From Micavibrio sp. (GTDB lineage: Bacteria > Pseudomonadota > Alphaproteobacteria > Micavibrionales > Micavibrionaceae), in contig NZAJ01000007.1 of assembly GCA_002687495.1 (NCBI GenBank), forward strand, positions 33,219-65,313: a stretch of DNA of 32,095 nt, given 5' to 3'. The position numbers and the translations under genes are program-made. Below, one piece after another: positions 9,600 through 29,329 of the stretch (positions within the stretch are counted from its first letter, which is position 1; every line of letters starts with the position of its first letter). The notes below the pieces were generated by a model. That model was not told the DNA's origin and searched no databases. It saw only the letters and a list, made by a program, of their open reading frames with translations.

Positions 9600-9806
9600 C
9601 TAGAAACCGTCGCGTTCGCGGCGTTTACGATCCATCTTACGTGAACGACGGATAGATTCAGACTGTTCGCGTGCCTTCTTTTCAGATGGCTTTTCGTAGT
9701 AGCGACGAAGCTTCATTTCGCGGAAGATACCTTCACGTTGCATCTTCTTTTTCAAAGCGCGTAGAGCTTGTTCTACATTGTTATCGCGTACGTTTACACT
9801 AACCAC
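9600..9806 (-). CDS. rpsU: 30S ribosomal protein S21
   Basis: This is small-subunit protein S21, 68 residues, very basic. The sequence contains [19 protein letters not shown] and [15 protein letters not shown], followed by an arginine-rich tail, all standard for the family. The start is GTG ([10 protein letters not shown]); an SD-like GGAG lies about 9 bases upstream and an ATG in another frame just ahead is not used. A near-consensus promoter and a leader of roughly 110 bases precede it, so the gene is probably expressed on its own. The bidirectional terminator ends it. Confidence 0.97.
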
Positions 9807-22329: not shown

Positions 22330-23241
22330 TTACTCTGCGCCGATTGTCACGCCCGCATGTTTCATACACCAAGCAAGAATAGCTTTTTGTGCATGCAGGC
22401 GGTTTTCCGCTTCATCATAAATCACACAAGCTGGTGTTTTCAAAACAGCAGGTGAAACCTCTTCATTCTCATGAATAGGCATGCAATGCATAAAAATCGC
22501 GCTATCTGCTGCTTCACTCATAAGCTCTGGTGTGACCTGATAAGGCATGAATTTCTCGATTGATTTTCCTTCTTGCCCCATAGAAACCCAGGTATCGGTT
22601 ACGACGACATCGGCATTCCAAACCGCATCATTCGGAGATTCACGATAAGAGACATGATCATTGGCTATATCAGGGGCGATATCTTCTGGCGTAGAAATCA
22701 CAAGCTCGAAATCAAAGATAGGCGCTGCTTGCTCAAAAGTTTTCGTCACATTGTTATAATCACCAAGCCATGTGATCTTTTTACCTTGAACGCCGCCGAG
22801 CTTTTCCTCAATCGTCATCATGTCCGCCATAATCTGGCATGGGTGAGATTTATCAGTCATGCCGTTAATAACCGGCACCTTACAATAGCTCGCAAACTCT
22901 TCTAAACGCTCATGATCACTCATACGGATCATAATTGCATCCACATAGCGCGAGAGCACATTGGCAGTATCTTCTAGGCTTTCAGCACCTGAAAGCTGGA
23001 TATCACCGACATTCAAAATTACTGTATGGCCGCCAAGTTGCTTCATTCCAACTTCAAAGCTGATGCGTGTTCTTGTTGATCGTTTATCAAACATCATGGC
23101 TAAAGATAAGCCTTCAAGAATTTGCGGCGGGTTAAATTTCTGCGCCTTTAGCTCATGAGCGTGGGCGAGAATTTTCTTCAGCACTTCGGGTTCGAAATCC
23201 TCAAGATCCATAAAATGTCTTGGCTCTATACTCATTTCCAA
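22330..23241 (-). CDS. argF: Ornithine carbamoyltransferase
   Basis: This enzyme transfers the carbamoyl group from carbamoyl phosphate to ornithine, giving citrulline. Carbamoyl-phosphate sites STRTR (55-59) and HPCQ (133-136) are present. The ornithine-loop motif D-x-x-x-SMG (216-222) marks it as a true ornithine enzyme, not the acetyl- or succinyl-ornithine type. HCMP (252-255) is the HCLP motif with Leu to Met, and AENRLHAQK contains the conserved late arginine (281). At 303 residues it is normal for the anabolic enzyme. It is the last gene of the - strand operon and lies 12 bases after argD. Using free ornithine implies that deacetylation happens earlier in this organism's pathway. Confidence 0.96.
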   Translation of the reverse strand: MEMSIEPRHFMDLEDFEPEVLKKILAHAHELKAQKFNPPQILEGLSLAMMFDKRSTRTRISFEVGMKQLGGHTVILNVGDIQLSGAESLEDTANVLSRYVDAIMIRMSDHERLEEFASYCKVPVINGMTDKSHPCQIMADMMTIEEKLGGVQGKKITWLGDYNNVTKTFEQAAPIFDFELVISTPEDIAPDIANDHVSYRESPNDAVWNADVVVTDTWVSMGQEGKSIEKFMPYQVTPELMSEAADSAIFMHCMPIHENEEVSPAVLKTPACVIYDEAENRLHAQKAILAWCMKHAGVTIGAE

Positions 23242-23253
23242 ACTCTCCTACCC

Positions 23254-24450
23254 TTAAAGCTCGCCGAGTGTTTTTTCGATGATGGCGAGTGCTTCATCGA
23301 CTTCTGATTCACTAATGATGAGTGGCGGCGTAATTCTTAAAGTGCCCTTACCAGCTTGCGTCGCCATAAGGCCATTTTTCTGTAAGCCTGAGAGAAGGTC
23401 TTTAATATCAAAGGCCGTATCTACCCCGATCATCAGCCCCTTACCTTTAATTGCAGTGATCTTATTTGAGCTGCGTTTAATCGCTTCTAAGCCAGAGAAG
23501 AAACGCTCAGACATTGCATTTACATGCTCTAAGAAGCCCTCTTTCATCATCTCTTTCATCACAGCTGCGGCCACAGCGCAAGCTAGCGGATTACCGCCAT
23601 ATGTCGTGCCATGTGTGCCAGGAACAAGAACCTTACCGAAGCGCTCTTTTGCACCCATTGCACCAACAGGGAAACCTGCGCCCATACCTTTTGCCCATGC
23701 AGCGATGTCTGGCTCAACGCCAAAAGCTTCATAAGCATGTAATGTACCTAGACGGCCAAAGCCTGCTTGAACCTCATCAAAGATTAGCGCGATATTTTGC
23801 TCATCACAGAGTGCGCGCAGCTCTTTTAAGAATGCGCCATCGGCAGGGCTTAAACCGCCCTCACCTTGCACTGGCTCAATAATGATCGCGGCTGTTTTAT
23901 CACTGACAAGTGCCTTAACAGAGTCGATATCATTAAAGGTCGCGAAATGCACGCCCGGCAGATATGGTTCAAAGAATGCTTGCGAGTTACGCTTTTCTGT
24001 TACAGAAGCAGAACCATATGTACGGCCATGGAAGCTCTGATGGAAAGCGATAATCTCGTTACAGTGAGGCCCTTTTTCATCATAGGCCCATTTACGGGCA
24101 CATTTTAAAGAGGCTTCTACACTTTCCGTGCCTGAATTTGAAAAATAAACCAAATCCATACAGCTTGTTTCAACAATAAGATCCGCAGCTTCTAGCTTTT
24201 CCTTTGTTGCGTAAGATGCTTGCACAGCCATCAAGCGTGCTGCTTGTGTTTGCAATGTTTCAAGCATTACCGGATGGGCATGCCCAAGCGAAGCGACAGC
24301 AATACCTGCTGCACAATCTAGATATTTCTTACCGTCTGTATCCCACGCATAGCAGCCCTTACCGTGATCCATAACGACAGGCTGAGGATTATAAGTTTTA
24401 ATAAGCTTTTTAAAGCTGTCCTCAATAATTTTTTCTGCTTCTGTGCTCAT
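23254..24450 (-). CDS. argD: Acetylornithine aminotransferase
   Basis: This is a class III PLP aminotransferase that converts N-acetylglutamate semialdehyde to N-acetylornithine. Motifs include FSNSGTESVEASLKCARK (103-120), FHQSFHGRTYGS (136-147), IEPVQGEGG (191-199), FDEVQAGFGR (224-233) and the PLP-binding Lys254 in AWAKGMGAGFPVGA. The length, 398 residues, is standard. Its ATG overlaps the stop of the preceding unknown gene (ATGA at 24447-24450), indicating translational coupling; argF follows after 12 bases. Related enzymes such as succinyl-diaminopimelate aminotransferase share these motifs, but position settles the role. Confidence 0.95.
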   Translation of the reverse strand: MSTEAEKIIEDSFKKLIKTYNPQPVVMDHGKGCYAWDTDGKKYLDCAAGIAVASLGHAHPVMLETLQTQAARLMAVQASYATKEKLEAADLIVETSCMDLVYFSNSGTESVEASLKCARKWAYDEKGPHCNEIIAFHQSFHGRTYGSASVTEKRNSQAFFEPYLPGVHFATFNDIDSVKALVSDKTAAIIIEPVQGEGGLSPADGAFLKELRALCDEQNIALIFDEVQAGFGRLGTLHAYEAFGVEPDIAAWAKGMGAGFPVGAMGAKERFGKVLVPGTHGTTYGGNPLACAVAAAVMKEMMKEGFLEHVNAMSERFFSGLEAIKRSSNKITAIKGKGLMIGVDTAFDIKDLLSGLQKNGLMATQAGKGTLRITPPLIISESEVDEALAIIEKTLGEL

Positions 24451-24869
24451 GATACAAACCCTCTTGCTTTCACTTCCTCAGCTTTTATCTGATCAAAAAA
24501 AGTACGGAAATCTTCATCCGTCTCTTCAAAATACTTTTTCGTTACATTCTCTAATGTCGTTTTACAATCCAACTTATATTCTTTTTGGTAAAACTTAGAC
24601 AAATTCAGAAACAAGAGTTTATAAGGTTCTTTTCCCTCATATTTAATGCGAAACTCTTGTCGTGTGTCGATACTAATCTCTATAAAAATTGAATTTGTTT
24701 TCGCAAAACCAAATACAGTCGCGCTAATTGCATCTTCATCATTATCGTAGCTATCTTTAAACTCAGAGATATATGTATTTATTATTTTCACAGCCTCATC
24801 CACATCAACATCATGCTGATCCTGGACACCCTCTGTCGAACATTTATACCATAGGTGTTTTTTACTCAT
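24447..24869 (-). CDS. Unknown acidic protein inside the arginine operon
   Basis: This 140-residue protein is not recognised. It is acidic, soluble and mixed alpha/beta, with no cysteine cluster or nucleotide-binding motif; segments such as TVFGFAKTNSIFIEISIDTR look like a beta sheet, and NVTKKYFEETDEDFRTFFDQ is helical. It is locked into the operon on both sides: its ATG overlaps the argB stop by one base (TAATG), and its TGA overlaps the argD ATG (ATGA). Such double coupling suggests co-production in fixed ratio with ArgB and ArgD. A regulator, chaperone or subunit of a pathway enzyme are all possible, and nothing in the sequence chooses between them. Confidence 0.75.
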   Translation of the reverse strand: MSKKHLWYKCSTEGVQDQHDVDVDEAVKIINTYISEFKDSYDNDEDAISATVFGFAKTNSIFIEISIDTRQEFRIKYEGKEPYKLLFLNLSKFYQKEYKLDCKTTLENVTKKYFEETDEDFRTFFDQIKAEEVKARGFVS

Positions 24870-25774
24870 TACTTTTTCCCTTCCACTAATTTTTGCGCCT
24901 CTATTTCATTCTCATAGGCTTCGCGATCACTTTCCATGATCAGCATTGTGCCTGGGCCGACTGGCTCATAGATTTCATTTTTAAGCGCATTATCACGCAA
25001 GCCGTTAATGAGGTGAATGCGACGAACGCCTGCCTCTAACGCGGCCTTACAATTATCGAGCTTAACTTTCATGCCACCAGTCACAGCGCCAGAAGCAATA
25101 TGCCCATCAATCTCTTGATCCGTGATCAGGCCTTTAACTTGCCCATCAATTTTCACGCCATCAACATCAGAGAGGAAAATAAGCTTATGAGCTTTAAGCG
25201 CTGTGGCCATAGACATCGCGATTTTATCAGCATTGATGTTACAGATATCGCCTTGCTCGCTAATGACGATGCATGACACTGCTATAAAATCTACAGCCTT
25301 AAAGAGGCGATTTATAGGCCGCGTATGTGCGCGAGTGATTGCACCGGTAAAAAGATCTTCTGGTGTTTTTGGCACAACATCAACATCCGCCCAATCTGAA
25401 GGCACAGCATTCAAGCTTAGCCCTGAGAGATTTACTTTTTGCATAGCAGCGCTAATTGAGAGCGAGAGGTCGCCGCCAACTACATGCTTCATCACAGCCA
25501 TATTTTCGGCCTTATTTATGCGCAAGCCATCTTTCTTTTCAACGCCGACACCACGCTTTAAGCTCTCTTCATCCATGGCGCGACCACCGCCATAAATCAG
25601 CAGAACCTTAATCCCTTGAAGCGTTAGCTCGCGGATATTCGAAAGCAGATTTTCTAGTGCCTTTTCATCCTCGATAACTTTACCGCCTGCTTTAATCACA
25701 AAGAGATTGTCACGAAACTTACTCTCGTAGAAAGCATTGATAAAAAATTCAGGGATGTTGTTTTTCTTTTTCAT
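24869..25774 (-). CDS. argB: Acetylglutamate kinase (divergent)
   Basis: This amino-acid-kinase-fold enzyme phosphorylates N-acetylglutamate. Key elements are VIKAGGKV (26-33) with the phosphate-contacting lysine, a glycine-rich loop YGGGRAMDEE (61-70) where most family members read HGGGPQI, NINADKIAMSMATAL for the substrate region, FLSDVDGVKI, and TGGMKVKLDNCKAALEAGVRRIHLING. The length, 301 residues, is usual. The altered glycine loop makes it an unusual member; neighbours argC and argD support the role strongly. argC precedes it by 44 bases and the unknown 140-aa gene begins within its stop codon. Confidence 0.9.
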   Translation of the reverse strand: MKKKNNIPEFFINAFYESKFRDNLFVIKAGGKVIEDEKALENLLSNIRELTLQGIKVLLIYGGGRAMDEESLKRGVGVEKKDGLRINKAENMAVMKHVVGGDLSLSISAAMQKVNLSGLSLNAVPSDWADVDVVPKTPEDLFTGAITRAHTRPINRLFKAVDFIAVSCIVISEQGDICNINADKIAMSMATALKAHKLIFLSDVDGVKIDGQVKGLITDQEIDGHIASGAVTGGMKVKLDNCKAALEAGVRRIHLINGLRDNALKNEIYEPVGPGTMLIMESDREAYENEIEAQKLVEGKK

Positions 25775-25818: not shown

Positions 25819-26829
25819 CTATGGATAGAGCGTGCCGAGTTGCAGCAACCCTTCGCCTTCATCTAATCCGAACATGATATTCATATTTTGCACTGCGCAG
25901 CCTGCTGCACCTTTCACCAGATTATCAATCGTGCCTTGTGCGATAATGGTGTTGTCCGCACCCTTTACAAAGCTGAGATCAACAAAGTTTGAGCCAACAA
26001 TATTTGCCAGCGCAACATTATCAATCAACCTTACAAAAGGTGCATCCTCATAAGCTTGTTCCGCGAGATCGAGTGCATCAACATCTGTTTTCAAACGGAT
26101 AAAAGCATTGGCAAAAATACCGCGTACAAATGGCCCTGATGACGGCACAAAGTTCAGCTGCGTTTCATCGATTTGTGCAGCACGCGTTATCTCTGGGATG
26201 TGGCGGTGCTTATTAATGTTATAGCTTTTTAGGTTATGGCTTCTGATGGGGTGATGCGTGCCGTCTGTTGCCGTTTTACCCGCGCCGCTAGACCCTGTCA
26301 CCGCGAAGATATCTGCGCTTTCAATTAGCCCTGCAAATGGGTAAAGCAGCATTTGTCCAAGCAGTGCAAAACAGCCGGGATTGGCAATTGTTGAGCTTGC
26401 AGCAATTTTATCTAAGCCTGTGATTTCCGGCAGGCCGTAAACGACGTCTTTCAAGAGCTCAGGATATTTATGCTCCTGATAAAAGCGCTCGTAAGTGCTC
26501 GCATCATCAAGGCGATAATCAGCAGAAAGATCAATCACTTTGACTTTGCCATGCAGATCAGCAACCACGTCTTGCGCTGTTTTATGTGGCAGGCATAAGA
26601 ATACAACATCACTCTCTGCGCCGACTGTTTTGTGATCGGTATTTGTAATGCTCAAATCCAAATGCGCAAGATGCGGATAAACATCGCCGATCTCCACATC
26701 ATCGTGCTGGCGTGAGGTTAGATAGCCAATCTCGATATTAGGATGGGCGAGCAAGAGCCTTAAAAGTTCAAGCCCTGTATAGCCTGTAATGCCAATGATT
26801 GAAGCCTTAATGGTTTTATTATGCGGCAT
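25819..26829 (-). CDS. argC: N-acetyl-gamma-glutamyl-phosphate reductase
   Basis: This enzyme reduces N-acetylglutamyl phosphate to the semialdehyde with NADPH. It has the N-terminal dinucleotide fold GITGYTGLE (13-21), the catalytic cysteine in NPGCF (Cys153), SSGAGK, HRHIPEI, and the C-terminal KGAAGCAVQNMN. I place the start at ATG 26829 (MPHNKTIKASIIG), with GGAG 8 bases upstream; a longer frame from 26868 would put unneeded residues inside the preceding gene. The chosen start overlaps that gene's stop by 11 bases. The product has 336 residues, normal for the family. Confidence 0.95.
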   Translation of the reverse strand: MPHNKTIKASIIGITGYTGLELLRLLLAHPNIEIGYLTSRQHDDVEIGDVYPHLAHLDLSITNTDHKTVGAESDVVFLCLPHKTAQDVVADLHGKVKVIDLSADYRLDDASTYERFYQEHKYPELLKDVVYGLPEITGLDKIAASSTIANPGCFALLGQMLLYPFAGLIESADIFAVTGSSGAGKTATDGTHHPIRSHNLKSYNINKHRHIPEITRAAQIDETQLNFVPSSGPFVRGIFANAFIRLKTDVDALDLAEQAYEDAPFVRLIDNVALANIVGSNFVDLSFVKGADNTIIAQGTIDNLVKGAAGCAVQNMNIMFGLDEGEGLLQLGTLYP

Positions 26830-27871
26830 TTTTATACTCCGTAGCCCAACGCGCGATAATAAGATCAAGCCACTGATTATCAGGCTTGAAAGCGTTATAG
26901 GTGAGGATATTTAATCTTTCTTTCAAGATGTCTTTACCAACCTGATTATCTGTCACTGGACCGCTCATCATATCGATTGGCAGACCAATACGCTGGCATT
27001 CTTGCGCTAGGCCGACAGCGCCGATTGGATCACGCGCACAGCCGATATGAAAGCGCACATGTTTCTGAATTTCTGGGTCACAGAGAATAGCATCAACACC
27101 GTATTTACCCATCAAGCCATCACCAAACTCAATCATGATTGCATCTGGGTTTGACTTTGAGAGATGATCAAGTGCGCCTTTTGCCACGCCGACCATCGTT
27201 TGACCATCAATATTAGCCGTAGAAGCAACGCCGCAATCTGTAAAGGATACTGCTTCATATACGCCGTAATCACTCATTTTATAAGTATCACGGTGTGCGC
27301 CAACGCCTGTTAGTTTTGCGCCAGCAAGCTTCATGCCCATACGGGTCAGTGTCTTTGTAATTTCGACTGCGACTGTTGTCTTACCGCTATCCATTGAGGT
27401 ACCGGTTGTGATAATCAAAGGCGCACATTTCTTTAGGGATGTAAGCGGCTTGAATTTGCATGCTTGATTGATATTTAGCAATTTCCCTTTACGCTCAACG
27501 CCGCCAAGCACACGCACGCGCATAGGCTCGCCAACTTCTTTTAGATTGGCTGAAACGCACACACCTGCAACGCCACCAAAGTTAAGCAAATGGATCACAT
27601 CGTCCACTTTGAGTGTTTTCGGGAGGTTACCAACAAAGCCTTGCAGCGCCATACGGTTACCCAGCGCCACAGCGATCACATCGCCTTTTTTGATTTTGGA
27701 CATACGCCCTGTTGGCAATTCTAATTCATTATAGACATTTTTATCGTCTAAGACCTGTACGGCCAGCACTGTACCCATTTCACAGGACAGCTTATCAGTT
27801 AGCTTCTCTTCAGCTTTTAGCTCCAAGTTTTTGGTTACTGAGGAGATTTTATCAAATTGTATTTTGCTCAT
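26819..27871 (-). CDS. Dethiobiotin-synthetase-like P-loop protein heading the arginine operon
   Basis: This 350-residue protein of unclear function is the first structural gene of the operon. Residues about 30-125 look like a small beta domain (GTVLAVQVL, GDVIAVALGNRMALQGFVG). Then comes a P-loop, GTSMDSGKTT (157-166), with five residues between the first glycine and GKT, as in dethiobiotin synthetase (GTDTEVGKT). Later elements DAIMIEFGDGLMGKYGVDA and IGCARDPIGAVGLAQ fit the same class. The fold pattern recalls DUF1611 proteins; one described member, DgcN, acetylates D-glutamate (from memory). With no argA or argJ recognised in the window, a role in making N-acetylglutamate is an attractive but unproven inference. 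It overlaps argC by 11 bases and follows the attenuator-like leader. Confidence 0.8.
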   Translation of the reverse strand: MSKIQFDKISSVTKNLELKAEEKLTDKLSCEMGTVLAVQVLDDKNVYNELELPTGRMSKIKKGDVIAVALGNRMALQGFVGNLPKTLKVDDVIHLLNFGGVAGVCVSANLKEVGEPMRVRVLGGVERKGKLLNINQACKFKPLTSLKKCAPLIITTGTSMDSGKTTVAVEITKTLTRMGMKLAGAKLTGVGAHRDTYKMSDYGVYEAVSFTDCGVASTANIDGQTMVGVAKGALDHLSKSNPDAIMIEFGDGLMGKYGVDAILCDPEIQKHVRFHIGCARDPIGAVGLAQECQRIGLPIDMMSGPVTDNQVGKDILKERLNILTYNAFKPDNQWLDLIIARWATEYKNAA

Positions 27872-27922
27872 TTCACATGCTCTATCAAAAATAAAAGTTT
27901 AAACACAATGCAACTCTTTGCG

Positions 27923-27938
27923 CTGTCTTTCAAGACAG
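27923..27938 (-). other. Hairpin in the arginine operon leader
   Basis: CTGTCT pairs with AGACAG around a TGAA tetraloop. It lies about 52 bases before the first structural gene. No U-run follows, so it is not a standard terminator. Confidence 0.45.
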
Positions 27939-27945
27939 ACAATCC

Positions 27946-28028
27946 AATTAAGCGTGCAATTTTTCGAGTTTTTTTTTGAAACGAGATGGGCAAGAGAAAG
28001 TGCCCGCTTAACCGGTAAAGGGTTAGCG
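27946..28028 (-). promoter_or_regulatory. Switchable RNA structure of the arginine operon leader
   Basis: In the - strand transcript, CGCTAACC (28028-28021) pairs with GGTTAAGCG (28013-28005) with one bulge. A second stem, GGGCA (28005-28001) with TGCCC (27992-27988), follows directly. The segment GGTTAAGCG can instead pair over its full length with CGCTTAATT (27954-27946), counting two G-U pairs, so the two foldings exclude each other. The first arm contains the last arginine codon and stop of the leader peptide. A ribosome stalled on the Arg codons would block it. No canonical terminator is visible, so the output mechanism is unknown. Confidence 0.6.
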
Positions 28029-28070
28029 AGGGCGTCGTCGGAAACTTAAGTTGTTTACGTTTTTGCTCAT
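28023..28070 (-). CDS. Arginine-rich leader peptide of the argCBDF operon
   Basis: A 15-codon reading frame encodes MSKNVNNLSFRRRPR and ends with TAA at 28023-28025. Codons 11-13 and 15 are CGA CGA CGC and CGC, so four of the last five residues are arginine. It lies about 150 bases upstream of an arginine biosynthesis operon on the same strand and runs into a hairpin made from its last Arg codon and stop. This matches the classical amino-acid attenuator design. A TTGACA element upstream would place the transcript start near the ATG, so the peptide may be translated from a leaderless or nearly leaderless message; no ribosome-binding site is visible. It is too short for ordinary gene finding. 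Confidence 0.7.
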   Translation of the reverse strand: MSKNVNNLSFRRRPR

Positions 28071-28076
28071 GAGCGT

Positions 28077-28105
28077 AATTAACGCCACTATCATTCTCTT
28101 GTCAA
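28077..28105 (-). promoter_or_regulatory. Candidate promoter of the arginine operon
   Basis: On the - strand a perfect TTGACA (28100-28105) is followed after 17 bases by TTAATT (28077-28082). The -10 is weak, as might suit a regulated promoter. A further upstream alternative has TTATAG/TATAGA near 28125-28131. Confidence 0.5.
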
Positions 28106-28127
28106 GTTTTTCGTTAAAAGCTATTCT
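28099..28127 (+). promoter_or_regulatory. Promoter for the tandem-domain secreted protein
   Basis: TTGTCA (28099-28104), a 17-base spacer and TATTCT (28122-28127) lie 41 bases before the gene. Its -35 shares bases with the -35 of the arginine operon promoter on the other strand. Confidence 0.55.
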
Positions 28128-28168
28128 ATAAGCATTAGCTTTATTAAAAAAACAACGATAAGAAGATC

Positions 28169-29329
28169 ATGATAATTTTCAAAAAAGCCCTTCAAACTTT
28201 AGTTCTCTCAGTTGCTGTTTTCACCCTCCCTTTTGACAGCATCGCTTTCGCGGAAGAGATTTGGGCGGTCTATCGCGATCCGGACAATTTATATGAAGCA
28301 AGAATTCCACATGAATATACGAAACAGGAATACTCTATCAATTTGGGCACAGGATACCAAGCAAAGTCAGACGTTATTACTGCAGAAATAAGCGATGTAA
28401 ACAATCCAGACAATAAGCGAACTTACAGCATAAACTACACTCAAACACTTGGGACTAACCTGACAGGTCAGGACAAGGATGTTCTTATGGAGAAGTTAGT
28501 AAATTTACATCTGGATAGCTATGCAGCCTATAACGGCCAATTGCTAAACCGCAAAAACTTTCAGGCTACAGGCAACATTAAAATTGCTGATCTTTATATT
28601 AAATACACACCTGAAGCGGATAAAGATATGTATACCCGCATACGTATATACATATCCAGCACAGCAAAAGCCGTACAAACGATTACCGGCCCACAATCTG
28701 CTATGTTCTCGTTCCGCTCTAAAGACTATTTTAATTCCTTAAACTTGAGACCAGGCTTTAAAGAAACAGCCACATCTATGTTTGACACATGGAAAAGCTA
28801 CACATCAGATTTAAATATTTTCACTGCAAAACTCCCTGAAGTTGATGGCTTATATTATTACCAAGAGCCTGAAAAATTTAGCGCGGATAATTACGAAGCC
28901 ATAGTCACAAATTTTTACGACCCTATGCTTCGTCAGAATTTAGCTTATAGAATTTATGGCTATAAATTAGCAGGGACAGACGTTAATGAAAGTATCGCAA
29001 CAGCTTTATTAACTAAACGGCACATCCAAAACAACAACGCTATCGTTACGGCCGCAGACTTCACTTACGAGGGAAATGGAAATATTCAAGTTATCTTCCC
29101 AATCCCACCTACTCCGCAAAATAAGAACGCGACATTTGCGCGCTTATATGCGCGCTATTCGGGTGAGCACCTTGTAGTTCAGGAAGCTTGGGCCAATGAG
29201 ACCGTCATAACATCTGAGTTTTTAAACAATGTTATTAGCAATATATCCTTTCACCCAGACGGCGTAGAGCTTAACAGTGCTAAAAATACTGAAGCCCCAG
29301 CCAGCGAAGCAGCTGCTGCAGCAGAATAA
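28169..29329 (+). CDS. Secreted protein with two tandem copies of one domain
   Basis: This 386-residue protein of unknown family has a signal peptide with likely cleavage after AFA (residue 28). The mature part consists of two related domains of about 160 residues. The first starts W32AVYRDPDNLYEARIP and ends YFNSLNLRPG (187-196). The second starts W208KSYTSDLNIFTAKLP and ends FLNNVISNISFHPDG (351-365). Each opens with W-x-x-Y, then N-x-(Y/F)-x-A-(R/K)-(I/L)-P and ends with an amphipathic helix and a closing strand. This recalls PsbP/Mog1-like folds, though I cannot confirm it. An Ala/Glu-rich tail follows. It is presumably periplasmic and is transcribed divergently from the arginine operon. 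Confidence 0.7.
   Translation: MIIFKKALQTLVLSVAVFTLPFDSIAFAEEIWAVYRDPDNLYEARIPHEYTKQEYSINLGTGYQAKSDVITAEISDVNNPDNKRTYSINYTQTLGTNLTGQDKDVLMEKLVNLHLDSYAAYNGQLLNRKNFQATGNIKIADLYIKYTPEADKDMYTRIRIYISSTAKAVQTITGPQSAMFSFRSKDYFNSLNLRPGFKETATSMFDTWKSYTSDLNIFTAKLPEVDGLYYYQEPEKFSADNYEAIVTNFYDPMLRQNLAYRIYGYKLAGTDVNESIATALLTKRHIQNNNAIVTAADFTYEGNGNIQVIFPIPPTPQNKNATFARLYARYSGEHLVVQEAWANETVITSEFLNNVISNISFHPDGVELNSAKNTEAPASEAAAAAE

Follow-up and report, generated by a model that had tools for sequence, protein, structure and literature searches.

A probable ribosome-mediated arginine attenuator before the arginine operon of Micavibrio and its relatives

The arginine operon and the region upstream of it

The DNA described here, hereafter the window, is a stretch of 32,095 nucleotides from Micavibrio sp., a genus that is placed under Bdellovibrionota in the NCBI taxonomy. 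Its minus strand carries a predicted operon with the gene order P-loop gene (26819..27871), argC (25819..26868), argB (24869..25774), an ORF of 140 amino acids (24447..24869), argD (23254..24450) and argF (22330..23241). The argC gene, which scores over the TIGR01850 cut-off, overlaps the first gene and has an uncertain start codon, the argB-type acetylglutamate kinase falls below the TIGR00761 cut-off, and the ORF between argB and argD has no Pfam or NCBIfam match. The first gene encodes a P-loop protein distantly like DUF1611_C; this domain matches 12 of 12 first-gene members at E values up to 5 (best 2.8e-4), with the window copy under the Pfam cut-off, and Foldseek relates the structural model (pLDDT 91) to generic P-loop folds of the SRP and dethiobiotin synthetase types. 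ArgJ was found in none of seven genomes of the genus. The DUF1611 protein DgcN is reportedly a D-glutamate N-acetyltransferase, and the first gene may therefore supply the N-acetylglutamate step. Arginine leaders were not seen by eye before argG, argH or the metY-like gene of the window. A basic protein encoded at 9600-9716 (minus strand) resembles, by eye, part of ribosomal protein bS21.

Upstream of the operon and on the same strand, a short ORF (MSKNVNNLSFRRRPR) extends over 15 codons from an ATG at 28070 to a TAA at 28023, and 151 bases separate its stop from the first operon gene. A sequence-only reading of this DNA had described the frame and its Arg-Arg-Arg-Pro-Arg tail as an arginine attenuator about 150 bases before an argCBDF operon; frame, tail and distance are as claimed, whereas argC is the second gene and the P-loop gene the first. 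The putative sensor codons are CGA CGA CGC CCT CGC (28026..28040, minus strand), and the locus therefore has the short upstream ORF with a codon run for the operon's own amino acid that characterizes attenuators.

A candidate promoter, P1, precedes the ORF. Its -35 box TTGACA (28100..28105, minus strand) is located 35 nt 5' of the leader AUG, and the probable -10 region TTAATT (28077..28082, minus strand) is a weak match, with TATAAA, TATAAC or CATAGC in relatives; a consensus promoter scanner did not report P1 in the window. Among 39 leaders, the distance from the start of the -35 box to the AUG is 35 nt in five, 36 nt in 24 and 37 nt in six (35/39), and the four exceptions are L048, L218, L222 and the doubtful L076, the first two of which each have an upstream in-frame ATG that would fit this spacing. 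As for how the leaders were collected, 14 of the 39 entered through other routes, namely 12 through a scan demanding TTGAC 22-42 nt upstream, L222 by eye and L152 through a covariance model, and of the 25 found without any promoter criterion 23 have TTGACA at this distance of 35-37 nt from the AUG. Ten of these 25, the window included, offer a choice of in-frame ATGs, and one was picked by hand before the promoter distances were taken. In the window the second in-frame ATG is situated eight codons 5' of 28070, and promoter geometry points to 28070 rather than the upstream ATG as the leader start. Since the TTGACA spacing is that expected if the A of the AUG is the transcription start, translation of the leader is probably leaderless. 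In 36 of the 39 leaders a C or T immediately precedes the AUG.

Motif recurrence suggests a possible second promoter, P2 (TTGAAA-N17-CATTGT; 27905..27933, minus strand). Of the 24 leader loci, 21 have the pattern TTGNNN-N17-CATNNT 53-123 nt before the first gene (limit of 130 nt), compared with one of the 13 leader-free loci (L052), and the background is 0.158 per kb. The element is probably a second promoter or a part of the leader, and if it is a promoter it would bypass the attenuator and allow attenuator-free expression. With respect to known regulators, the C-terminal domain of ArgR (PF02863) was found in none of 99 genomes of the family, the incomplete window genome included, while 8 of 14 controls were positive, and as far as the search for this domain goes, control of the operon by ArgR is unlikely.

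The arginine codons and the distribution of the leader

While the bodies of the leader peptides vary, the Arg run is kept, with tails such as RRRPR, RRRTR, RRRSR, RRLTR, RRRRR and RRRRRN, and further RRPR, RRRETR, RRRS, RRRPL, RRQRRK, RRRRRTI and RRFRRRCA. The frame, the position of the AUG and the Arg codons stay constant as the DNA diverges, and a conserved codon run within an otherwise variable peptide is again a property of attenuators. The codon usage of the run is also peculiar, as CGA makes up 57 of the 94 Arg codons in the last eight codons of 25 leaders compared with 22 of 383 in 31 window genes, and the run begins with CGA CGA in 21 of the 25; the nominal p-value for this enrichment was set aside because the leaders are related. 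ARAGORN finds 23 tRNA loci in the incomplete window genome, among them tRNA-Arg with the anticodons ACG, CCG and UCU. Under the wobble rules CGA is read by the ACG (inosine) tRNA, and given this tRNA-Arg set decoding of CGA would depend on it. If the leader is indeed an attenuator, one rare codon would be strongly preferred as its sensor.

Of 28 near genomes, 12 gave a match to the first gene. Its relatives occupy 204 places in named contigs; the analysis retained the top 79 loci, among which 36 reach an identity of 60% or more (L044-L079). When the 400 nt 5' of the gene were scanned without regard to promoters, 24 of these 36 loci proved to have a short ORF ending in an Arg-rich tail, a count that omits the frame LFRPRKRKA of L079 and includes the doubtful L076. 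If a box resembling TTGACA is also demanded at 35-37 nt from the ATG, 23 loci remain, or 24 of 37 with the window added. In order to estimate chance occurrence, 909,982 bases, with both strands of the window and the 36 loci counted, were scanned for promoter-coupled ORFs of 8-30 amino acids with at least three Arg in the last nine residues; the 29 matches comprise 24 at the operon position and five elsewhere.

Across the order, argC exceeds the curated cut-off in 55 of 142 genomes, and the others may be arginine auxotrophs, incomplete, or carriers of a low-scoring argC. The leader is firmly present in 36 of the 55, spanning 11 genera, and tentatively in two more (G055, G091). The firm cases are G000, G001-G004, G006 and G062, the last with its leader on a contig separate from argC, plus 29 from an order-wide scan for TTGAC-preceded leaders; L076/G498 (MIRTRRDRNRR) and G048 (MSMRTARLLRRR) were removed from this count. 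Relatives that keep the operon without the leader had been named in the sequence-only reading as evidence against it; all seven genus genomes searched (G000-G006) have the leader, whereas 17 of the 55 argC genomes lack it, and it is therefore not universal in the order. In ten of the 36 the leader stands directly before argC (for example MNNNTNRRRRR, MLTQAYIPARRRRRTI, MNLVHITYPASRRRRGK and MTQTKHILSPVCRRFRRRCA), in G098 the leader MDKNCTYQSRRRIS is about 800 nt before argC with another gene intervening, and in G067, without an argC over the cut-off, the leader MQKTAPLLRRRTR precedes argF. The leader thus tracks arginine genes as the next gene changes from the P-loop gene to argC or argF. At the level of the class, a strict leader pattern matches nine of 385 genomes, three of which (G000, G006, G015) have this leader, and the other six were judged by eye to be GC-rich coding coincidences.

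Two mutually exclusive helices

The RNA after the Arg codons can pair in two ways. Element 1, the 5' arm of hairpin 1 (CGCTAACC; 28021..28028, minus strand), consists of the last Arg codon, the stop and CC, and it pairs with element 2, the shared 3' arm (GGTTAAGCG; 28005..28013, minus strand), whose alternative partner, element 3 (CGCTTAATTGG; 27944..27954, minus strand), is found 50 bases further on. Covariation was evaluated in an alignment, A2, of the window and 13 relatives (14 of the 25 leaders), which were picked because an element 3 of the CGCTTAAT type is visible in them; the 11 leaders without it (L051, L054, L055, L057, L059, L060, L063, L065, L068, L070, L076) are omitted. Among the rows of A2 the pairs L045/L046 and L050/L062 are close by eye, and relatedness is ignored by the covariation shuffles and preserved by the slid controls.

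Helix 1:2 has 84.7% paired cells against at most 43.2% in slid controls, and its covariation of 0.302, compared with 0.147 when shuffled, was reached by none of 500 shuffles. Thirteen cells are altered on both sides (shuffled mean 3.0), and the numbers of both-side-changed pairs (31/500) and of pair types (380/500) are within the shuffle range. For helix 2:3 the paired cells amount to 86.4% (slid controls at most 50.4%), the covariation is 0.442 versus 0.220, again reached by 0/500 shuffles, and 21 cells are altered on both sides where shuffles average 7.5; both-side-changed pairs (52/500) and pair types (48/500) are within the shuffle range here too. RNAalifold recovers helix 2:3 unaided. Mutually exclusive helices, one of which overlaps the leader ORF, are consequently supported by the 14 of 25 leaders used, and the two pairings of the 3' arm that the sequence-only reading had picked out both stand, each with covariation behind it. 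The comparison of related genomes that it had proposed for the Arg codons and the stems yields a conserved Arg run and compensatory changes in both stems among these 14 sequences.

A covariance search had likewise been proposed there. The model built from the 14 A2 sequences matches 31 of the 142 order genomes at E 0.01 or better, and 12 matches were inspected: six have the leader (L014, L140, L146, L148, L152, L155), five resemble chance matches (L149, L154, L156, L157, L158) and L160 is doubtful. Against the opposite strand of the window site the model scores 21.9 bits versus 90, as an inverted repeat would.

The 2:3 duplex of the window reaches -21.5 kcal/mol compared with a shuffled mean of -11.1 (z -4.4), and across the 20 leaders in the duplex test, from which L063, L065, L068, L070 and L076 are omitted, z extends from -4.8 to +0.9, without excess in L054, L055, L057 and L073. 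When partners are swapped, the native partner outscores all 26 swaps in three of the 14 core sequences (L045, L050, L058), and swaps score better than it five times for the window, 13 times for L067 and eight times for L072; in clade 2 the native partner outscores all 10 swaps in L059 and L060 only, with two better swaps for L051, two for L054, four for L057 and nine for L055. Several duplexes include further pairs between the U-rich tract downstream of hairpin 1 and A-rich bases located 5' of element 3. A loop-based alternative pairing of AGAGATCAA with TTTGATCTTT and similar segments, noticed by eye in L051, L054 and L059, was not counted as support; its duplex is strong in L059 (z -4.8) and L051 (z -2.6), and not in L054. 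Taken over its full 199 nt, the leader does not exceed its shuffles in stability (z -0.12); the case for the proposed structures rests on covariation.

The effect of a ribosome was approximated by folding with the covered bases kept unpaired, under an assumed footprint length. The mean probability of 2:3 is then 0.76-0.83 with the A site at Arg1 to Arg3, 0.53 at the last Arg, falling to 0.30 at the stop, and that of 1:2 in the nascent RNA is 0.61 when free, 0.36 with Arg1 in the A site and 0 from Arg2 to the stop, the last by construction of the mask. These values suggest that a ribosome waiting on the Arg codons would favor 2:3 and that its release would permit 1:2. Without a mask the full leader gives 2:3 an average of 0.55 versus 0.26 for 1:2, and three of the 14 sequences (L047, L048, L058) scarcely form 1:2 even when nascent.

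Proposed mechanism, alternative explanations and known systems

Conservation of the leader and its Arg codons, the promoter spacing, both helices and the U-rich tract are results of comparison, and on these grounds we consider the leader very probably a ribosome-mediated arginine attenuator, with the operon genes most likely switched on when the cell is short of arginine. The interpretation given in the sequence-only reading is largely borne out. We infer leader translation, stalling, termination and the response to arginine in the following way. Transcription would begin with the A of the leader AUG or a base adjoining it, as the promoter geometry implies, and a ribosome would load at the leaderless end and trail RNA polymerase through the Arg codons, mostly the rare CGA. 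With ample charged tRNA-Arg it would get to the stop and depart, element 1 would pair with element 2, and in this OFF state polymerase would tend to halt at the ensuing U-rich tract. With arginine short, the ribosome would wait on the Arg codons and cover element 1, so that element 2 would stay free and could later pair with element 3, 50 nt downstream, in the ON state in which the operon is read. Element 3 and the A-rich bases before it could lock up the 3' arm and the U-rich tract together.

The output step admits more than one reading, and intrinsic termination, Rho or RNA stability is possible; the Rho-dependent or translational output suggested in the sequence-only reading may likewise apply. 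The sequence-only reading had reported the absence of a U-tract, which is only partly right because a U-rich tract (ACUUUCUCUUG; 27991..28001, minus strand) follows hairpin 1; it is imperfect in the window, where it is interrupted, has at most six U in eight, is matched by 19% of the positions further downstream in the window leader, and also falls within a small hairpin, GGGCA/UGCCC (28005-27988). Unbroken runs of five or six U follow hairpin 1 in six relatives, and over the 14 sequences the best 8-base stretch past it has 4-7 U (mean 5.7), with 6.6% of downstream positions equally U-rich on average and 29% in L056. A terminator scan of 27850-28250 reported only the small hairpin and did not call hairpin 1. 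A separate 3:4 terminator, as in the trp-type arrangement of four segments, can be set aside, as the same scan shows none past element 3; from there to the P2-like box alifold finds no consensus stem in the gappy alignment of 14 sequences, and the segment folds in each sequence singly at -6.7 to -19.2 kcal/mol.

Because element 3 is made after the U-tract, 2:3 cannot be a classical antiterminator of hairpin 1, and the conservation of element 3 would not readily be accounted for by intrinsic termination at hairpin 1 as the whole output. Helix 2:3 may instead block the re-forming of hairpin 1, close the C-rich stretch to Rho, or alter RNA stability. Rho and RNase G act in the control of Salmonella speF, whose upstream orf34 contains Arg codons (PMC6386406). 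For the output alone we see a considerable though not leading possibility that the same sensor acts through Rho-dependent termination or RNA decay, in that 1:2 would expose the C-rich, untranslated RNA ahead of the gene to Rho or RNases and 2:3 would close it. The stretch between elements 2 and 3 is indeed rich in C (111 C against 61 G in the 14 sequences), unlike the first gene (213 C, 264 G), and 2:3 has been conserved even though intrinsic antitermination would require it to form earlier; on the other side, all 14 sequences have at least four U in eight past hairpin 1, and an excess of C over G is a weak sign of Rho loading, with 7 C and 7 G in L048. We advance tentatively, as a somewhat doubtful proposal, a layout that joins these features: a leaderless ORF would end within its own OFF hairpin, a downstream element would trap the 3' arm and the U-rich tract once polymerase has passed, and one ribosome stalled on rare CGA would set termination as well as a subsequent step (Rho or decay), the whole standing in for ArgR across much of the family.

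Other explanations concern the sensor itself. Fungi have an arginine-sensing arrest peptide, the arginine attenuator peptide, and the leader could by analogy be an arrest peptide sensing free arginine, or a small protein acting in trans, and not a codon-counting device. The trp leader peptide of S. meliloti acts in trans (PMC7298713), yet in the Micavibrio leaders the residues outside the Arg run are unconserved and the run itself varies (RRRPR, RRQRRK, RRRRRTI, RRFRRRCA), and we find this account quite improbable. A riboswitch or protein-binding RNA with an incidental frame would fit two exclusive structures with covariation, but it is slightly less probable still, considering that divergence of the DNA has left the frame, the place of the AUG and the Arg codons intact and that Rfam gives no match at gathering scores across the window and none at E up to 5 for 27860-28130, where no known leader, T-box or riboswitch was recognized. 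A chance ORF with chance complementarity would suit a leader that folds no better than its shuffles, but is negligible given 24 look-alikes at the operon position against five elsewhere in 910 kb and the covariation of both helices.

The proposed ribosome-mediated attenuator can be set beside several known systems. To our knowledge leader-peptide attenuation of biosynthetic operons is not usually listed for arginine, and an arginine-codon attenuator of an arginine biosynthetic operon was not found in the open-licence literature, which is weak evidence of novelty. The enterobacterial trp, his, leu, thr and phe attenuators combine a run of cognate codons in a short leader with rival hairpins before an operon for the same amino acid, features that the Micavibrio leader shares, and they differ from it in a 3:4 terminator distinct from 1:2 and in a Shine-Dalgarno start. 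Mycobacteria reportedly have leaderless polycysteine ORFs, said to have been described by Canestrari and colleagues in 2020, which are similar in that a leaderless short ORF repeats a single amino acid in a row and lies ahead of the operon concerned with it, and differ in the amino acid, cysteine, and the phylum, Actinobacteria. In T-boxes uncharged tRNA binds the RNA directly and there is no leader ORF, and arginine T-boxes are thus unlike the Micavibrio leader in mechanism and like it in controlling arginine genes at the RNA level.

A 2005 survey (PMC1262725) names T-boxes for arginine, and its authors detected no conserved terminator hairpin in the mycobacterial polycysteine leaders. A published counterpart in the alphaproteobacteria is trpLE(G) of Sinorhizobium meliloti (PMC7298713), a ribosome-dependent attenuator with a 14-amino-acid leader ORF at the RNA 5' end and two exclusive structures, which provides a precedent for a leaderless arrangement; it has tryptophan codons and a terminator/antiterminator pair, whereas the Micavibrio leader has arginine codons and a proposed OFF hairpin with the stop codon in its 5' arm, and the segment from element 3 to the P2-like box yielded no consensus stem. 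Arginine sensing by leader codons is found in two other settings. In Salmonella, consecutive Arg codons of orf34 (34 codons; speF starts at nucleotide 516) sense arginine through alternative RNA structures, and the target is ornithine decarboxylase, not arginine synthesis, with Rho and RNase G as effectors (PMC6386406). In Staphylococcus aureus, Arg codons of the rbfL leader peptide sense arginine limitation, and there the ribosome, once paused, masks the RBS of a biofilm regulator, and arginine shortage lowers expression (PMC13009471).

If the proposed attenuation holds, it would explain how arginine synthesis is controlled in bacteria without a detectable ArgR, and the leaders of the 36 argC genomes together with the one argF case would provide 37 natural variants for tests of the mechanism.
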